From IMG/VR virus record IMGVR_UViG_3300035670_000017, positions 1 to 64,000 of that record: 64,000 bases of DNA. One strand, given 5' to 3'. Under the pieces are notes generated by a model. That model was not told the DNA's origin. It worked only from the letters and a program-made list of their open reading frames with translations, and ran no database searches. Position numbers and translations under genes: made by a program. Source of the stretch: a virus. This document shows, one piece after another, positions 16,162 to 25,111 of this stretch (within the stretch, counting starts at the first letter, position 1; each line of letters starts with the position of its first letter).

Positions 16162-19100
16162 TTACAGCACACGCCGATTATCAAAGGATGACGTATCGGC
16201 TTTGCGCGTTGGGTTACTGTTAGCGAAATTCCTCACGCTAGGTCCAGAGCTACCGCTACCGGAACCTTGCTCAGGAGACTTCATACCAGCCAGTCCCTGC
16301 GTATTTTCAGCGATGCGCTCCAGCAATGGAACGACCTTCTCAGTGATACTAGTATCCATCGACGACAGATGCTTGATCTGATCCTCAGCAGATTTAGTAA
16401 ACCGATCCAGTACTTGCGCAGTCAGCTGAATAGATGTATCCCGTGCCCCGTTGGTCGCGTAGCCTGGAGCACCAGGCACTGCTGCGGGAACCATGCTCCT
16501 AGCGGGTCGCACAGCAGTTGCGGTGTCGCCACTAGAAGTCAGCATAGCTACAGGATTGTAGTCAGGTAGATCGTATCCAGCGATAGACTTTGGATCATAC
16601 GTCTTAGGTGCAGTGGGGTTATAGGAAGCCTTCGAGAGTCCTCCGCCCATGATCGAACCACTAGCAGCTGTCGCTGCGGGTGTATCCGAACCTCCACCCA
16701 TGGCGATACCAAATTCATTAGCTTTCTTCGATACGCGTTTAGCCATGAACTCCTTGACTTCTTGGACTGTTCGTGGTCGCGAACCATCGAAGAATATCTC
16801 GCGATTCTTTTCAGCTTGCTTAGGTGACAAGCGATAAGCCAAGTCTCCAGGGTTGGCGCTATTGAGACGATTAGCACCGCCTGCGCCCAGCAAATGCGTC
16901 ATGTACCTGCTGGTAAAGTCTGCCCCACCCTTGTTACTCTTCATGTATTCATGGGCCAAGATGACGTTAGCACGAATATCGTCACGAGGAGTATTCGCAT
17001 CCAATCCATACTTACCGCCGTGTTTACCGATTTGCTCTTTCCATGTGCCATCGATGAAACCCATCAGACCGGTAGCTGAGGTCCCATTAGCCTTAGCCTT
17101 TGGATTCAAGCTACTTTCCATGGCAGCCAAAAGCATCATGTCATTGGGATTGGCTCCGATCTCAGCTGAGACCCGTGCAATCTCTTTCTTGATGTCCTGG
17201 TGAGGACCGGATCCCAAAGATGCAGAGGCATCATTGTTACCAGAGAACTCCACATTACCGCCACTGGAGCGACCCATGGAAGAGAAGCCCTTGGAAGCAC
17301 TTTCCTGGACAGCCTTAGCAGGGATAAGATCCTTGCCTTGAACCACAGGGGAGTTTAAGTTACTAGCAGGAGAAGGAGGAACACCTTGTGCATCCGACAA
17401 CTTGACAACAGTTCCACCGGACTGTTCGTACAGAGCTTTCGCCAATGCAGGATTGCGTCCTCCCACAGGAGAGCGAGGAGTAGCGCCTGCTCCACCGCCA
17501 CCTCGACCGAGAGACGCCAAAATGGCACTGTCGGCAAAGTTAGGATCACGCTTGGCCTGGTCGATGGCTGTCTGAATGCCAGCTGGTTCAATGTGCCAGG
17601 TCTCACCGTAAATAGGACGTGTAAATCCATACTTACGCAACAGGCCCAGCTTCTCCAATTCGTTCAAGTCTTGAGTCGACAAGTCCGCAGCCAAACCGTA
17701 TTCATGCAAAGATCCACCGGGACGAGCAGCGCGACCTGGGCCGTACTTAGCATACATTCTCTGTTGATCTTGGAACGAACGATAGGCGGACGTCACGTTC
17801 AATTGCTTGCCAGTAGCTTCGCCATATTCCTGAGCCATAGCGAGCAACTGTTGCTTCATGCGAGGATGCAGACCCTCGACATTCACACCGTTACCCAGCT
17901 TCAGATACTGCATACCACTTTCACCGGAAGCCAGTGGTCCATCAGCTATCTTCAAGGAAGCAGCTCCCATGCTCAATGTCCCAGCGCCTTGATTGCTAGA
18001 AGGTTTACCCAATGCCGCTGGATCCTCTACATCACCATTGGCGATCGCTCGACCCAAATGAGAGTTGGGAGGAATGGCTCGGCGCTGAGGCGCCGTCATT
18101 GGGGCTTGAGTAGGATTGTTAACATCCGTCTTAGGTGCATTAGGAATAGCGCTCTTGACAGCTTCATTTGCCATCTTAGCTTCCTGAGGCGATGGCTTAT
18201 TACCGCCAGCTTTAGCTTTCTTCGCTGCTTCGTCTTGGATCTTCTTACCAAGGGTTTGAATCTTAGCGTCAATGATCTTCTTGACTGGTTCAGGATTAGA
18301 GCTGAGAATATCCAAGCCCTTGAATGGACTTGTAGTATTTTCCCAGATGCTGCGAGGAATCTCAATCCCCGACAGATACTCCAGTTTCTCCGAATCAGTC
18401 AACGAATCGACCTTCTCCAAGGAAGCCTTGTTATTGACACGATACAATGCGGCGACGTGTTTTAGGAACACAGGCGAGAAACGATCCGTATACCACTTCG
18501 AGAACTTCGATGCAGTTTCAGTATCATCCGCAGCTATATCAAACAGCTCCGCAATCTCTTCAGGTTTAGCTGCGCGGCTATTGATAGTAGGGATACCGCC
18601 ATTGAAAGCCAACTTACCATCGAGCAGATACTTCTCCAAGGCGATGACCTTGCTGTTGTATTGCTTCGTGGCATCGGTACCGTCTAGACCGTACTGCATC
18701 ACACGGATGCGTTCCCATTCATCGATGTTATTGCGAGTCAGGTATTTATAGAGCTTATAGCCACCATAACCGACACCAGCGATTGCTGCTGCACCGATTA
18801 CGACAGGTGCACTCAAAGCGCTACCAATCAAAGAAGCTGCCCCAGAGAGCATACCTCCTGCTCCACCAGCAGCCAAGCCTACTACCTGTAGTGCTCTCAC
18901 TGCGGTAGTACCCACCCGAGCAACGCCTGCTGCTCCTGGAAGCGTACCAGCCACACCCTTAATAGCGCTACCCACTCCAGCTACCGCAGTACCGACTCCA
19001 AGTATTCCTCGACCAGCCCACATAGCACCTTGACCTAATGCTTTTACACCTGACCAGATACCCTTACCAGCTTTACTGATAAGTTTACCCGGACGACGAA

Positions 19101-22100
19101 TACCGCCGAGTAGATCAGCCGCTCCACCGATCAAGCTGCTTGCCATTCCGGCAATGGAGCTAAGACCAGCAGTTGCCATGGCGATCATCTTCTCGATGGC
19201 ATTATCAGCGGGAGAGTTACGAGAAGCCTTTTGCTCTGCTCCCTTCATGGAAGCTTCAACTGCGGCTTTCTTTCGCTCCTCATTAGCCATTTGGTTAGCT
19301 TGCGCGTTTTGCATGCGGTCAGCCGTACCACCGTCACGCTGCCCATCGCCGTCCGAGTCACCGAACATACCACGAATACGTTTGTAAGCGTTAGATGCTT
19401 TATTGCCGCCTAACTGAAGCAAGCGCATAGCGTGATCACGAGCGCTATAGGTATTAGCGCCTTGGTCAGCAGCACGCTCTTCGCGTTGCTGATTAGGATC
19501 CGCATTGGGGTTACTGAAGAAAGCGCTCAGCATATTAGCTGCGCCACCTACTGCAGAACCAATAGCTCCGAGACCGGTACTCGCCATTGTGCCCAAACGG
19601 GAACCGCGCAAACGACCACCCCAACGTCCAAGGCGACCTCGGGCTCCAGGGAAGCGTTGACTGAACGCACCTCCTAGGGAACTAGCAGCTTGCTTACCTG
19701 CTCCGAACAATCCTCCTAGTGCGCCTACGATACCACCCATCCCGTTATTACCCATGTAGTTACGTACTTGAGCTGGTTGCTGTGGTCCGACCATTTCAGG
19801 AGCAGGACCAAACATCTCGGGACCCATCTGAGCCATTGCATTTTGAGCACCGCCGATGCCCTTGATCTTTTCAAACCAAGACTTCACTGATGCACCATAG
19901 AGCGGAGCGTTCATGAATGCACGAGCATTACGAACCCGACCATAGATGTTATCAAGGATCTCTTTAGGCTTATCAGCGGCGGCCAAATCACGCAGCTGCG
20001 TCAACAGCGATGCATTGACCTTATCGGGATTTTCCTCGATAGAGTCTGCGCCACTTGACGAAGGCGGCTTGTAGCTCGTTGTGGTGTCTGAATCAGTAAT
20101 CGAACGACCCATGATCTCTTTGACCTTCTTGCCGGATTTACCGACAGCCAATAAGTCACGGATCTGGATCAAGATAGGCACCACACGAGGATCGGTTCCA
20201 CCAATGCCAAAGCGGAAGTCACTGAACTTGTCGATCACTCGGTTCTTGATACCCGTGGCCTTGTCACGAGCAGTACCCCACATCTTTTCAAGATTGGCGC
20301 TTTGAAGTTTATCACGTACATTGTTGTACATCCCCATTGCACCAGCAGCCAGATAGGAACCCGCAGCCTTCGCGGCGCCTAATGCATTCTGAGTGAATGT
20401 CTTGAGTACAGTTCCAGCGCGAGTCTTCAGTCCCTGAGCACGATCAGTGATACTGAGTTTGACTCGATTCATCCCGTCAACGATATCACCCTTAGCACGC
20501 GCCACGTCGTCCATGGTCTTCAGGGCTTTACCTGTTGCTGAATCGAAGTAGTAACCAGCGGCTAGCAAAGAGCCAACAATCACCGGGCTTTCCATGCCTT
20601 CGATATACAAGTCATCCACAGTCTGGAAAATGTTCTTAACACTATCCATGGCTGAGTCAAACGCACGCTTACCCATACCACCCAACTTAGGCATCTGGTT
20701 AAAGACGATATCGCTTCCGAACTCAATCGAACGAGATACAGCCTTCATAGTAGCTTGCAGGATATTATCCCGAGCATCCTTGATACCTTCTTTGTTGTTG
20801 GTCCAGAAGTTACTCATGGCCTGACCGGTTGCCTTAGCGGCTGACCCAGCACCTTTACCGAAAGACTTACCCCCCGCGATCGTAGTGTCGATCAAAGAAG
20901 TCAGCAGCGAGCCAAACGCAGCGCCGACACTGGTTGCCCCGGACATGACAAACTGCTTGCCTTTGCTAGCGCCAGCAGCCAATCCGGACAGATCGACGTT
21001 ACCGAACCCTGAGCCTTGCCCGGAAGCAATCAACTCAAGGATCTTTTTGGTATTCTCGTCAATGTTACGCAAGTGTTCAGTACCTGCCCCAGCACCCATT
21101 GATTCAACCATGTCCGCCAGCTTCTTGACAGCTGCCATGACGTGTCCGTTGAGATTAATCAAGTCAATCGTCTTGCCGCCAGGCGCAGCGTCGTCTCCGA
21201 AGTTTGCACGAACGTCTTGGGCCATAGGTCCAGTGTAATTCTGGCGCCCATAACCCTGAGGACCTGCGTATTTAGTTCCTGGTTTGTAATCCCAGTCATA
21301 AATCTGCGTCTTCTTGAAAGCGTTTACAGACTTAGTAGGATCGATCTTAGACTTGGAGATGTTGTGCTTCAAGTTAATGTCAGACGCCACGGTGACGCTG
21401 TCATCAAAGAACTTGTAGTACTGGTCTTCGTTGACCTTCCAGTTACCATCCTTGTCGCGGGTAATGATACCTTGCTGCTCAAGCAAGGGACCATAGCCTT
21501 CCCGGATAGCTTCCTGGATAGGGCCCATCAAGTTACCGATGCTGGACTTGACTTTAGCTGAGTTCGTGGCGAATTGGAATTGGTTCTTAGCAGTCTCCAA
21601 GGAGTCACCACTGAAGCGCTTATCCAAGATTCGCTCCACAATCTTCTTGACCCGAGGATTGAGAGATTGGAACTCTTTAGTCTTTTTGAGTCGATCGCCA
21701 GTGAAGTCGAAGTCCTCATTGGAGCGAGAGAGTTTGTTGATGAACATCTGCACTTCACGAGCATCTGTCGCATCTAGCTTTTCAGAACCCACAAACGTAT
21801 TGTAAGCTTCGCGTGATTCGTCGTTGTATGTCTTCATACCAGGCGCAGCTTCGCTGGCTGAACGCTTCAGACCAGAGACGATGTCACGAGCCAAGCTCGA
21901 CTGGGTCTTGAATGATTCACTCTTGACGTCGTACATCAAAAGAGGAGTCTTATCGTCACCAGTACGCAATGCTGTCACTTCACGCAGAATGCGAGCCAGA
22001 TAACCAGGAATGATTTCTGTCAAGCTGCGATTGACCTTCATCTGGGTATGGAGTTTATTCTCACCCTCTTTACCGATAGAAGTGCTTCGGATCAACATGT

Positions 22101-23406
22101 CCGGCTTTTCACCAGCTAGCAAATCAAAGATGAATCCCAGGCCGTTTTGAGCCAAGTCTCCAAATTCAGAACCATCCGCTCCGAGCTTCTTATACCAGTT
22201 GGAGTTTCTCATCATGTCGATAAGTGCTCCAGGGTTAGTCGCATAACGCCCAGCTTGGAAAGAACGCTTCATGAACTTAGGATTCTTTTCAGCCCTTTTC
22301 TTGACTGTCTTAGAGATCCAATCAGAGATGAAGTCACCCAGGATACTGCCGCCAAACACACCAGCGGTGCGATAGCCAGAAGACTCCCGGCCTTCCAGCT
22401 CAGCCATCTCCTTATCCATATCACGGCTGTCAATCGCCATGTCCAATGCGTCATTGAGCATCTCCAGGGCATCTTTACTACCCATGATCTTCTCGCGACC
22501 CATCTTCATCAGACGCTGGCCTGCTAGACCCACTCGGCTCTTACTGCCGAACAAGCCATCATTGATACGACCGAATACCTGCTCCTTAGAGACTTGCTTC
22601 CAGCGCTGGGTGTTAGAAGTCTTTGCATATTCAGGCAACGAAGTGTTGTGCAGCAATGCATCTTGGAATGCCAAAGAGCGCTTTTGGAATTCAATCGAAT
22701 GCTTGAGCATCGTCGCCGTTGCAGCGTATGTGCGGTACTGAAGTTCCAAAGACTTCTTCTTGTACGCAACATCAAAGCTCGACTGATAACGACGGATCGC
22801 ATGGATGTCATTAGCGATGATACCAAGCATCTTCTGGTTAGCTAGAAAACGCTTGTCCTCAACGCGAGACTGCACCATGTCGTAAGCCATCTTTTGCTTA
22901 TGACGGTTTTCCTCGTTATTCTCCCGATCACCTTCCAAGTCAGCCATCATTCGAGCGATGGTCTGGTCTTCGATGGATTCAGTATTGTAAGAAGAGGTGT
23001 TATCGATCTCATCGTCGAATTTATCTCGCAGATTACGAGCAAAATTCTTAGTACGTTGAGCCGAGTCAGGCACAAGTTGATCAAACTTGCGACTGATACT
23101 TCCCATCACCGGCTTGAGTTCCTTCGTAGCTTCATCGTATAGCTGGGTGGTGTCAGTAACGATTTGATCGATGCTGTCCCATGCCTGTCCAAAGCCATCA
23201 GGCAGTGCCTTACGAACCATGCCTCGGATATGAGACGAGTCAGTAAATTTGGTACGCAAAGAACTCTTAACACCATCAGCTATCTGGCTGATGGGTGTGC
23301 TCTTCTTGCTAGGTGGTTTTGGAATATCGAAGTCGTCATCAAAGTCGAAGTCGAGACTGGCATCCCAGGAATCTTTGCCAAAGTCTAATCTATCTTTCTT
23401 TGCCAT
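16162..23406 (-). CDS. Giant tail protein with S74, M15 peptidase and lytic transglycosylase domains
   Basis: 2414 residues, with AAGGAG before the ATG. In order it has an acidic start (DFDFDDDFDIPKPP); long charged helices to about 660; an S74-type intramolecular chaperone domain at about 672-768 (S675-D676, K680, then a WDY core, GPMAQDV and a final helix); helices and Gly-rich linkers; a calcium-type loop near 1350 (DSDGDGQRD); a hydrophobic Gly/Ala region at about 1405-1555, long enough to insert in or cross a membrane; an M15 D-Ala-D-Ala carboxypeptidase-like domain at about 1835-1942 (SAYRSFQDQQRM, GSLHEYGLAADLS, ETWHIEP); and an SLT lytic transglycosylase at about 2070-2185 with catalytic E near 2096 (AAMESSLNP, TGLMGF). 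The protein most likely serves as tape measure or central tail protein that digests cell wall during injection. It sits like phiKZ gp181, next to the beta' and beta genes. Confidence 0.9.
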   Translation of the reverse strand: MAKKDRLDFGKDSWDASLDFDFDDDFDIPKPPSKKSTPISQIADGVKSSLRTKFTDSSHIRGMVRKALPDGFGQAWDSIDQIVTDTTQLYDEATKELKPVMGSISRKFDQLVPDSAQRTKNFARNLRDKFDDEIDNTSSYNTESIEDQTIARMMADLEGDRENNEENRHKQKMAYDMVQSRVEDKRFLANQKMLGIIANDIHAIRRYQSSFDVAYKKKSLELQYRTYAATATMLKHSIEFQKRSLAFQDALLHNTSLPEYAKTSNTQRWKQVSKEQVFGRINDGLFGSKSRVGLAGQRLMKMGREKIMGSKDALEMLNDALDMAIDSRDMDKEMAELEGRESSGYRTAGVFGGSILGDFISDWISKTVKKRAEKNPKFMKRSFQAGRYATNPGALIDMMRNSNWYKKLGADGSEFGDLAQNGLGFIFDLLAGEKPDMLIRSTSIGKEGENKLHTQMKVNRSLTEIIPGYLARILREVTALRTGDDKTPLLMYDVKSESFKTQSSLARDIVSGLKRSASEAAPGMKTYNDESREAYNTFVGSEKLDATDAREVQMFINKLSRSNEDFDFTGDRLKKTKEFQSLNPRVKKIVERILDKRFSGDSLETAKNQFQFATNSAKVKSSIGNLMGPIQEAIREGYGPLLEQQGIITRDKDGNWKVNEDQYYKFFDDSVTVASDINLKHNISKSKIDPTKSVNAFKKTQIYDWDYKPGTKYAGPQGYGRQNYTGPMAQDVRANFGDDAAPGGKTIDLINLNGHVMAAVKKLADMVESMGAGAGTEHLRNIDENTKKILELIASGQGSGFGNVDLSGLAAGASKGKQFVMSGATSVGAAFGSLLTSLIDTTIAGGKSFGKGAGSAAKATGQAMSNFWTNNKEGIKDARDNILQATMKAVSRSIEFGSDIVFNQMPKLGGMGKRAFDSAMDSVKNIFQTVDDLYIEGMESPVIVGSLLAAGYYFDSATGKALKTMDDVARAKGDIVDGMNRVKLSITDRAQGLKTRAGTVLKTFTQNALGAAKAAGSYLAAGAMGMYNNVRDKLQSANLEKMWGTARDKATGIKNRVIDKFSDFRFGIGGTDPRVVPILIQIRDLLAVGKSGKKVKEIMGRSITDSDTTTSYKPPSSSGADSIEENPDKVNASLLTQLRDLAAADKPKEILDNIYGRVRNARAFMNAPLYGASVKSWFEKIKGIGGAQNAMAQMGPEMFGPAPEMVGPQQPAQVRNYMGNNGMGGIVGALGGLFGAGKQAASSLGGAFSQRFPGARGRLGRWGGRLRGSRLGTMASTGLGAIGSAVGGAANMLSAFFSNPNADPNQQREERAADQGANTYSARDHAMRLLQLGGNKASNAYKRIRGMFGDSDGDGQRDGGTADRMQNAQANQMANEERKKAAVEASMKGAEQKASRNSPADNAIEKMIAMATAGLSSIAGMASSLIGGAADLLGGIRRPGKLISKAGKGIWSGVKALGQGAMWAGRGILGVGTAVAGVGSAIKGVAGTLPGAAGVARVGTTAVRALQVVGLAAGGAGGMLSGAASLIGSALSAPVVIGAAAIAGVGYGGYKLYKYLTRNNIDEWERIRVMQYGLDGTDATKQYNSKVIALEKYLLDGKLAFNGGIPTINSRAAKPEEIAELFDIAADDTETASKFSKWYTDRFSPVFLKHVAALYRVNNKASLEKVDSLTDSEKLEYLSGIEIPRSIWENTTSPFKGLDILSSNPEPVKKIIDAKIQTLGKKIQDEAAKKAKAGGNKPSPQEAKMANEAVKSAIPNAPKTDVNNPTQAPMTAPQRRAIPPNSHLGRAIANGDVEDPAALGKPSSNQGAGTLSMGAASLKIADGPLASGESGMQYLKLGNGVNVEGLHPRMKQQLLAMAQEYGEATGKQLNVTSAYRSFQDQQRMYAKYGPGRAARPGGSLHEYGLAADLSTQDLNELEKLGLLRKYGFTRPIYGETWHIEPAGIQTAIDQAKRDPNFADSAILASLGRGGGGAGATPRSPVGGRNPALAKALYEQSGGTVVKLSDAQGVPPSPASNLNSPVVQGKDLIPAKAVQESASKGFSSMGRSSGGNVEFSGNNDASASLGSGPHQDIKKEIARVSAEIGANPNDMMLLAAMESSLNPKAKANGTSATGLMGFIDGTWKEQIGKHGGKYGLDANTPRDDIRANVILAHEYMKSNKGGADFTSRYMTHLLGAGGANRLNSANPGDLAYRLSPKQAEKNREIFFDGSRPRTVQEVKEFMAKRVSKKANEFGIAMGGGSDTPAATAASGSIMGGGLSKASYNPTAPKTYDPKSIAGYDLPDYNPVAMLTSSGDTATAVRPARSMVPAAVPGAPGYATNGARDTSIQLTAQVLDRFTKSAEDQIKHLSSMDTSITEKVVPLLERIAENTQGLAGMKSPEQGSGSGSSGPSVRNFANSNPTRKADTSSFDNRRVL

Positions 23407-23497: not shown

Positions 23498-25111
23498 ATG
23501 CCACGTAAGCTTGACCCATTTAAAATAGACCTTCTGATTCCCACTCGCGCAGATCTGCAAGGTGTGAAGAAAGTTGTTGTCATGGACATCATGGAAGGTT
23601 TCACTAAGAACTTCCACCCTGAAGGTTTGTTCTCCGCTGAGATCTTCGGTAAGGTCGGTGAAGAGCGCCGCTCCAAGACGTTCGGCTACATTGACCTGAA
23701 TCTCAAAATCTTTCACCCACTGATCTATAAGGTCATCATTGATCTGAAAGCTCTGTACGGTGAAATCATGGCCAGCAAGACCTATGCAGTGTTTGATGAG
23801 GAAGCTAAAGACTTTGTCAAAAGCAACATCGCTGAAGGTGAGACTGGTTACGAATTCTTTCTGAAACACTTCAACAAGATCAAGTTCGAAAGAACTAACT
23901 CCATCAGCCGCAAGGTGTATGTGCAGTTTGTGGAGAAATACCGAGAGAACCCATTCATCGAACAATTGATCGTGATGCCCGCTGGCCTTCGTGACTACAT
24001 GGTCGACGAAGATGGCAAACCGTCTGAAGATGAGATCAACGGCATGTATCGCTCGATCATGGCTGTTAGCTCGTTGATGCAAAACGTCAACACAGGCAAG
24101 AACCCAGAGATGGTGGATGCTTCGCGTGCCAATTTGCAAGTGAAGGTCTATGAGCTGTATCGCTACATCATGGGTCTGCTCTTGGGTAAAGGCAAACTTA
24201 TCCAAGGATCGTTCCTGTCTCGCAAGGTATCCAACACTACACGTAACGTGATCTCCAGCTACATCCCTAACGTCAGGCGCTTCGGGGATCCTACTTCGGT
24301 GGGAGCCAGTGACACCGTGATGGGCCTGTACCAGTATCTGCGGGACATCATGCCTTTGGTGGTGTTCCATCTGAAGAACAAGTACATGTACAAAGTCTTC
24401 TCTGGCACCAACACCGACATGACTGTAGTTGATCCTAAGACCCTAAAGAAAAAACAAGTGGGTCTGGACTCCAAGGCATACAACACCTGGATGACTTATG
24501 ACGGTATCGAAAAGATCTGTGATAACTTCTCCCAGGAAAACATGCGTCATTACCCTGTGATGATCGGACCTAACTATTTGGGTCTGGTGTACAAGGGTGA
24601 CGATATGACGTTCAAGTTCATTCAGGACATTGACGAAGTTCCTGAAGGTCGTGACAAGAAGTCTGTCACTCCGATCACCATGGCAGAGTTGCTTTACATG
24701 GCGGTCTATGAAGAAGCCAATGAGTCCTATGGCTGGAGTACCCGCTACCCGGTGACTCAGTTCGGTTCGACCTTCCCTGGTACTGTCTACCTGAAATCCA
24801 CAAGCGATTCCGAAGCTCGCTATGAGCTGGATGACATGTGGGAGAAAATGCCGATCCTGGCGAAGTCCTTTCCGGTCAACGGCAGTGAGTTCTTCAACTC
24901 CATGAGTGTTCCTGTCAGTCGAGTACCTCGTGCAGGTGCTGACTTCGACGGCGACATGATGAACCATTATTGCGTTTTGACCACTGAAGCAAAACAAGAA
25001 GTCAAGAGGCTGTTGGGTTCCAAGGAACACTACATGACCATTGACGGACAGCCTACTTTCAGTCTGGACAACGATTACATCAAACTGGCTTTGGCATATT
25101 TGACAAACTAA
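23498..25111 (+). CDS. RNA polymerase beta' N-terminal subunit (phiKZ gp180-like)
   Basis: 537 residues. The invariant metal-binding loop of multisubunit RNA polymerases is present as ADFDGDMMNH, with the three catalytic aspartates at D482, D484 and D486. Near residues 231-255, LIQGSFLSRKVSNTTRNVISS matches the beta' stretch FRQNLLGKRVDYSGRSVI. The protein ends soon after the catalytic loop, so trigger loop and bridge helix must be supplied by another gene not in this window, as with phiKZ gp80. It is divergent from the giant tail gene and 50 nt upstream of the beta gene, the order seen in phiKZ for the virion polymerase. The product would be packaged and transcribe early genes if it is the virion enzyme; that assignment is by position. 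Confidence 0.93.
   Translation: MPRKLDPFKIDLLIPTRADLQGVKKVVVMDIMEGFTKNFHPEGLFSAEIFGKVGEERRSKTFGYIDLNLKIFHPLIYKVIIDLKALYGEIMASKTYAVFDEEAKDFVKSNIAEGETGYEFFLKHFNKIKFERTNSISRKVYVQFVEKYRENPFIEQLIVMPAGLRDYMVDEDGKPSEDEINGMYRSIMAVSSLMQNVNTGKNPEMVDASRANLQVKVYELYRYIMGLLLGKGKLIQGSFLSRKVSNTTRNVISSYIPNVRRFGDPTSVGASDTVMGLYQYLRDIMPLVVFHLKNKYMYKVFSGTNTDMTVVDPKTLKKKQVGLDSKAYNTWMTYDGIEKICDNFSQENMRHYPVMIGPNYLGLVYKGDDMTFKFIQDIDEVPEGRDKKSVTPITMAELLYMAVYEEANESYGWSTRYPVTQFGSTFPGTVYLKSTSDSEARYELDDMWEKMPILAKSFPVNGSEFFNSMSVPVSRVPRAGADFDGDMMNHYCVLTTEAKQEVKRLLGSKEHYMTIDGQPTFSLDNDYIKLALAYLTN

Follow-up and report, generated by a model that had tools for sequence, protein, structure and literature searches.

A mid-protein S74 autoprocessing domain in a putative tail tape measure protein of phiKZ-related giant phages

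In other jumbo phages, peptidase S74 domains, also termed intramolecular chaperone autoprocessing (ICA) domains, occur in tail fibres and spikes (PMC7824862). That such domains are normally C-terminal, as the initial annotation of the DNA studied here stated, holds with one known exception, MYRF, in which a mid-protein S74/ICA domain cuts (PMC3742443). Both a Ser and a Lys are required for the cut in MYRF, which falls just before the Ser and takes place in trimers only (PMC8326128). In the literature searched, no report of S74 domains in tape measure or internal virion proteins was found.

The tape measure protein of phage lambda, gpH, is trimmed near its C-terminus during tail assembly by another protease. 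The tape measure of diffocin, the only complete tape measure structure cited in this comparison, is a coiled-coil trimer with its N-termini at the collar and its C-termini on the spike (PMC10996793). In the giant phage SPN3US, gp239 (259 kDa) has been named the tail tape measure protein, was detected in virions, and is treated as a tail protein (PMC5694885, PMC7411985, PMC10052503). For phiKZ gp181, an older proposal was a trimeric needle that punctures the cell (Briers 2008, cited in PMC5380687). Here we describe a homologue of these two proteins with an S74 domain in its interior.

A gp181/gp239 homologue and its domain layout

The window, i.e., the whole 64,000-nucleotide stretch analysed, comprises positions 1 to 64,000 of the 167.7-kb virus record IMGVR_UViG_3300035670_000017. 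An ORF on its minus strand (16162-23406) encodes 2414 amino acids (~258 kDa at full length), and the product is, judged by sequence homology, a homologue of phiKZ gp181 and SPN3US gp239 (phrog_3201, E 3.3e-185). The homology to this family covers the N-terminal region and the SLT domain, and the protein also matches a tape-measure PHROG. In the reference phages, the gp181/gp239 gene lies beside divergent virion RNA polymerase subunit genes; likewise, the conserved neighbour in the window is a divergent gene for the beta-subunit of the virion RNA polymerase on the plus strand (23498-25111; phrog_2986, E 1.8e-184). A mutation of SPN3US has been listed at position 210826, codon 501 (PMC7411985). 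This position is exactly codon 501 of the homologous gene at 205209-212327, which is therefore gp239. Based on homology, synteny, the SPN3US gene name and the literature, we file the window protein as a putative tail tape measure protein with murein hydrolases; the designation goes back to published annotation and to tail mass spectrometry rather than to localisation, and a location in the tail tube is putative. RefSeq calls the homologue a "tail fiber protein" across phiKZ-related phages (NC_010821, NC_041994, NC_048668, NC_027402 and others), an automatic name that conceals a group of S74-bearing tape measures.

Residues 1-674 (21385-23406, minus strand; 76.4 kDa if released) form the most conserved region across the tape-measure/gp181 family, as seen in the alignment with the reference phages and in further alignments (A1 and A3). 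In the AF2 model, this region is nearly all helix and ends in a compact helical domain, with residues 500-673 as the well-predicted part. Foldseek returned no meaningful match for the N-terminal model, and the model of residues 1-674 holds no beta-helix stalk or fibre upstream of the S74 domain. The suggestion that this first part is a rod does not fit its conservation, its helical make-up and its compact end. Both murein hydrolases follow the S74 domain, as had been noted from the sequence: a VanY (D-Ala-D-Ala carboxypeptidase) domain at residues 1846-1917 (17656-17871, minus strand; Pfam E 3.5e-8) and an SLT lytic transglycosylase domain at residues 2085-2161 (16924-17154, minus strand; Pfam E 1.9e-5; phrog_4067, E 6.4e-30). 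They lie among the ~1640 residues downstream of the S74 domain, which is internal, and hydrophobic stretches are located at residues ~1408-1545.

The internal S74 domain and its catalytic pair

Pfam assigned residues 675-736 of the ORF to PF13884 (Peptidase_S74) with an E-value of 5.3e-6 and 27.1 bits, the curated cut-off for this family being 22 bits. When the entire record was searched with PF13884, a single match was obtained (21199-21384; E 1.2e-8, 32.9 bits). The match to a subfamily profile gives the whole domain an extent of residues ~671-775 (21082-21396, minus strand); the domain thus lies where the initial annotation had placed it (21100-21390) and is slightly longer. A profile made from alignment A2, which contains the window S74 domain and 10 relatives, matched solved S74/ICA domains in the PDB, namely those of a tail fibre (8jov, 3.4e-6), the GA-1 neck appendage (3gud, 6.7e-5) and human MYRF (7dc3, 2.4e-4); the SD...K and G..AQ motifs line up in these alignments. 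A PDB search with the single sequence of residues ~581-801 gave nothing relevant. The AF2 monomer of the domain was of modest quality (overall pLDDT 67.8), and its best Foldseek matches were both MYRF ICA chains, with E-values of 0.9-1.1 that are not significant; the S74 homology therefore rests on the sequence profiles. By profile and catalytic motif, the domain is a genuine member of the S74/ICA family and is probably active, its cleavage being a prediction. A mid-protein S74 domain had been recognised initially by S675, D676, K680, WDY (residues 705-707), GPMAQDV (residues 726-732) and a final helix, and each of these features was found as described, the helix as a prediction with a pLDDT of ~80. 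Two trivial explanations were also considered. A chance match was rejected on the grounds that the A2 profile reaches solved S74/ICA structures, and an assembly chimera on the grounds that the identical join occurs in 14 other contigs.

The predicted catalytic pair consists of S675 (codon 21382-21384, minus strand) and K680 (codon 21367-21369, minus strand) in the motif SDINLK, with the Lys five residues past the Ser. In the profile alignment, S675, the predicted nucleophile, corresponds to S587 of MYRF and S911 of endoNF, and K680, the predicted general base, is equivalent to K592 and K916, respectively. Ser and Lys are retained in all 14 distinct tape-measure S74 domains. The positions of S675, D676 and K680 are conserved in 13 of the 14 aligned rows; the 14th is L027, in which SDINVK is present and an insertion of ~35 residues separates it from the remainder of the domain. 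The Ser, Asp and Lys positions are also held in all 22 podophage rows used, and the ten residues ahead of the cut and the three between Asp and Lys vary. The predicted cut lies between A674 and S675, the position proposed initially, and its main support is the conservation of Ser and Lys, which is indirect. The computed masses of the predicted products are 76.4 kDa and 181.8 kDa.

Two relatives differ at the front of the domain. In L027 (residues 677-784), the motif is found ~50 residues upstream, ahead of the insertion, and L024 (residues 667-687, and from 702 on) has a second SD...K segment upstream. The extra SD...K-like segment or split motif of these two proteins gives the impression of a partial duplication at the domain's front.

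Distribution, inheritance and podophage kinship

None of the 20 reference isolates carries an S74 domain in its gp181-type protein, and the idea that all gp181 homologues have the domain was therefore rejected. S74 domains were detected elsewhere in the genome in five records of the reference search, four of them among the 20 isolates. Clusters of three or four S74 genes were seen in some of the giant-phage records, within a few kb in G035 (140690-145774) and G067 (169154-171991) and within ~11 kb in LucasX (MW825358; 265822-277100). These clusters are presumably arrays of tail-fibre genes.

A scan of viral contigs for close relatives, with the N-terminal 1135 residues as query, found none. 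A search with the N-terminal alignment gave 253 metagenomic relatives, and in 11 of the best 80, which were kept, S74 is present at the same place. Three more tape-measure carriers (L118, L124 and L133) came from an S74-subfamily scan. The carriers beyond the window amount to 14 metagenomic contigs with 13 distinct sequences or, with the window, 15 contigs with 14 distinct proteins. Their N-termini are ~22-39% identical to that of the window protein, and in every carrier S74 lies between the conserved helical N-terminal region and the rest. The unusual mid-protein position pointed out in the initial annotation thus recurs in 13 further distinct gp181-like proteins, all of them metagenomic, and in none of the reference isolates. 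Relatives devoid of S74 have a low-complexity linker at this place, which is variable in the reference isolates. A search with the subfamily profile found no trace of a degenerate S74 domain in the other relatives, and the presence of such remnants was rejected.

On a tree of the N-terminal region, 12 of the 14 S74 rows fall into one group together with a few negatives, and two fall into another. The presence of S74 on this tree needs four changes, two of them forced by strong branches, and the S74-negative relatives L028, L030 and L058 lie inside the S74-bearing clade. Several closest pairs are common to the tape-measure and S74 trees (WIN/L023, L024/L026, L044/L059 and L029/L043). This agreement, together with the same junction in divergent N-termini, suggests that the domain was inherited and kept, and speaks for inheritance over repeated capture. 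These comparisons indicate that, among phiKZ-related giant phages, one lineage has the S74 domain built into its putative tape measure. L044 (3177 amino acids) and L059 (3343 amino acids), two related tape measures with S74, are ~800-900 residues longer than the others, which points to added domains or to much longer tails.

Besides the tape measures, the subfamily scan yielded about two dozen contigs where S74 of the same type forms the end of a protein of ~360-400 amino acids. These podophage-type proteins match phrog_8003, "virion structural protein," and in most contigs with long enough flanks the order is S74 protein, an ORF of ~400-690 amino acids, and a giant ORF. The giant ORF has at least 2500 amino acids, running past the end of the fetched region, and matches endolysin, tape-measure and DarB-like families. 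S74-capped phrog_8003 proteins of ~365 amino acids upstream of this giant DarB-like/lytic ORF were located in the podophage-type contigs of L112-L143, in L008 (5844-7031) and in L146 (5680-6936). Their cultured relatives are Bcep22/Parlo-type podophages of ~58-63 kb. Serratia phage Parlo gp78 has S74 at residues 326-375 of 418, with S326 and K331, and Erwinia phage PEp14 is another cultured phage with this arrangement; in BcepIL02 gp66, Pfam detects no S74. JC1 gp64, for which nine unique peptides were detected in purified virions (PMC9144972), would be the equivalent of the S74-capped protein by gene order. The S74 tree unites the podophage and tape-measure domains (support 95/96) and sets them apart from the five fibre-type S74 domains included, with one very divergent row placed among the tape-measure rows. 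This branch of S74 therefore appears to be tied to DNA-delivery proteins, not to receptor fibres, and the domain appears to be an optional module in both the tape-measure and the podophage families. The podophage proteins carry public names such as "tail fiber domain-containing protein," which probably mislead. The initial assignment of the window domain to S74 is retained, but the domain is not the usual tail-fibre chaperone: it falls into a subfamily of tape-measure and podophage DNA-delivery proteins, and it follows no beta-helix stalk.

Possible mechanism and relation to known systems

On balance, the evidence favours a model in which a trimer-dependent, self-cleaving S74 chaperone splits the tape measure into parts of 76 and 182 kDa, as in MYRF; we hold this predicted cleavage to be probable with moderate confidence. 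We infer trimer formation, cleavage, its timing and the orientation in the tail as follows. Three chains would pair via the final S74 helix, which would set the rods in register and close the active site; the bond between A674 and S675 would then be cut by S675 together with K680. The products would be a 76-kDa N-terminal trimer and a 182-kDa C-terminal trimer, the latter headed by S74 and with both murein hydrolases close to its end. If other tape measures are a guide, correct trimer assembly would be followed by a cut that releases the head-proximal part from the lytic part anchored at the tip, and the two may leave separately at ejection. S74 requires a trimer and the diffocin tape measure is trimeric, which suits trimer-dependent cutting, and a cut is likely to be tolerated since the S74-negative relatives have a loose low-complexity linker at this place. 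The tail channel of P1 has a minimum of ~40 Å (PMC12810830), so that a folded S74 trimer may not fit; either the tape-measure location is doubtful or the domain lies at an end. With such a channel, the folded domain would need a place at one end of the tube, or would have to do its work while the tube is still open. Further points speak against self-cleavage of a tape measure: all S74-bearing members are metagenomic, the domain being absent from the 20 reference isolates; the S74 model is of modest confidence, and its best structural matches fall short of significance; and the usual S74 client, an upstream beta-helix, is absent.

It is also conceivable, if rather unlikely, that the domain does no more than bring the chains together as an aligned trimer, a folding clamp placed within a long linker, with no cut occurring in the virion. 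Most of the family functions without S74, including the three negative proteins inside the S74-bearing clade, the functional parts after the domain stay useful while attached, and the L027 insertion parts SDINVK from the remainder of its domain. A clamp, however, would have no need for both Ser and Lys, yet both are kept in 14 of 14 domains while their neighbours drift. Even less call exists for regarding the domain as a functionless passenger recently captured in a permissive linker. The hypervariable linker and the patchy presence of S74, with its four changes on the tree, are what such a capture would leave; the 14 divergent proteins, however, retain the fold residues and the catalytic pair, and several closest pairs recur in both the tape-measure tree and the S74 tree, so that we regard this explanation as very improbable.

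The protein might instead be an external, needle- or fibre-like component of the baseplate outside the tube, which S74 would mature as it does ordinary tail fibres, the C-terminal lytic half being held by interactions. A folded S74 trimer would be easier to fit there, and the needle proposal for phiKZ gp181 and the RefSeq name of many homologues point the same way. Against it, the SPN3US authors name the homologue a tape measure protein, the sequence is helical, rich in hydrophobic segments and matches a tape-measure PHROG, fibre-like beta structure is absent, and the S74 subfamily is separate from fibre S74 domains (95/96). We consider an external component improbable.

In a wider and more tentative reading, which we find plausible rather than likely, this S74 branch would be a module of DNA-delivery proteins that cuts the tape measure of giant phages and trims a virion protein of Bcep22/Parlo-type podophages, the cut serving as an assembly check and separating the parts before ejection. 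For tape measures, which are long trimers with little folding, a cutter that is built in and depends on the trimer would offer a simple explanation of both their register and their later release. If the tape measure does cut itself, S74 chaperones would extend from receptor fibres to the DNA-delivery channel, and phages would have a counterpart to the mid-protein cut of MYRF; in the wider reading, the parts separated would be the head-proximal and the tip-anchored lytic one.

Compared with the described systems, the window protein shares homology of the N-terminal region and the SLT domain, as well as the gene neighbourhood, with phiKZ gp181 and SPN3US gp239, whereas the reference isolates have a variable linker in place of S74. 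Unlike lambda gpH, it would carry its own protease, and in its middle. The phrog_8003 podophage protein has the closest S74 subfamily and a gene beside that of a giant lytic/DarB-like protein, but its S74 is C-terminal on a protein of ~365 amino acids. The S74 domains of fibres and spikes (K1F endosialidase, GA-1 neck appendage 3gud, tail fiber 8jov) share PF13884, SDxxxK, the GxxAQ core and the final helix with the window domain; they stand at the C-terminus behind beta-helical fibres and are discarded, whereas the window domain lies inside its protein, comes after helices and is of another subfamily. With neither the C-terminal position nor the beta-helical client, the window protein lies outside the classical fibre-chaperone arrangement. 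MYRF has a mid-protein S74/ICA domain with a Ser-Lys pair as the window protein does, and its own trimer-dependent cut gives two trimers (PMC3742443, PMC8326128). MYRF is a membrane transcription factor of eukaryotes in which a beta-helical stalk precedes the domain, whereas the window protein is a phage virion protein with helices before S74, murein hydrolases after it, and a predicted cleavage. Among these systems, it is MYRF that the window protein, with its predicted cut, seems reasonably likely to resemble most in how it works.
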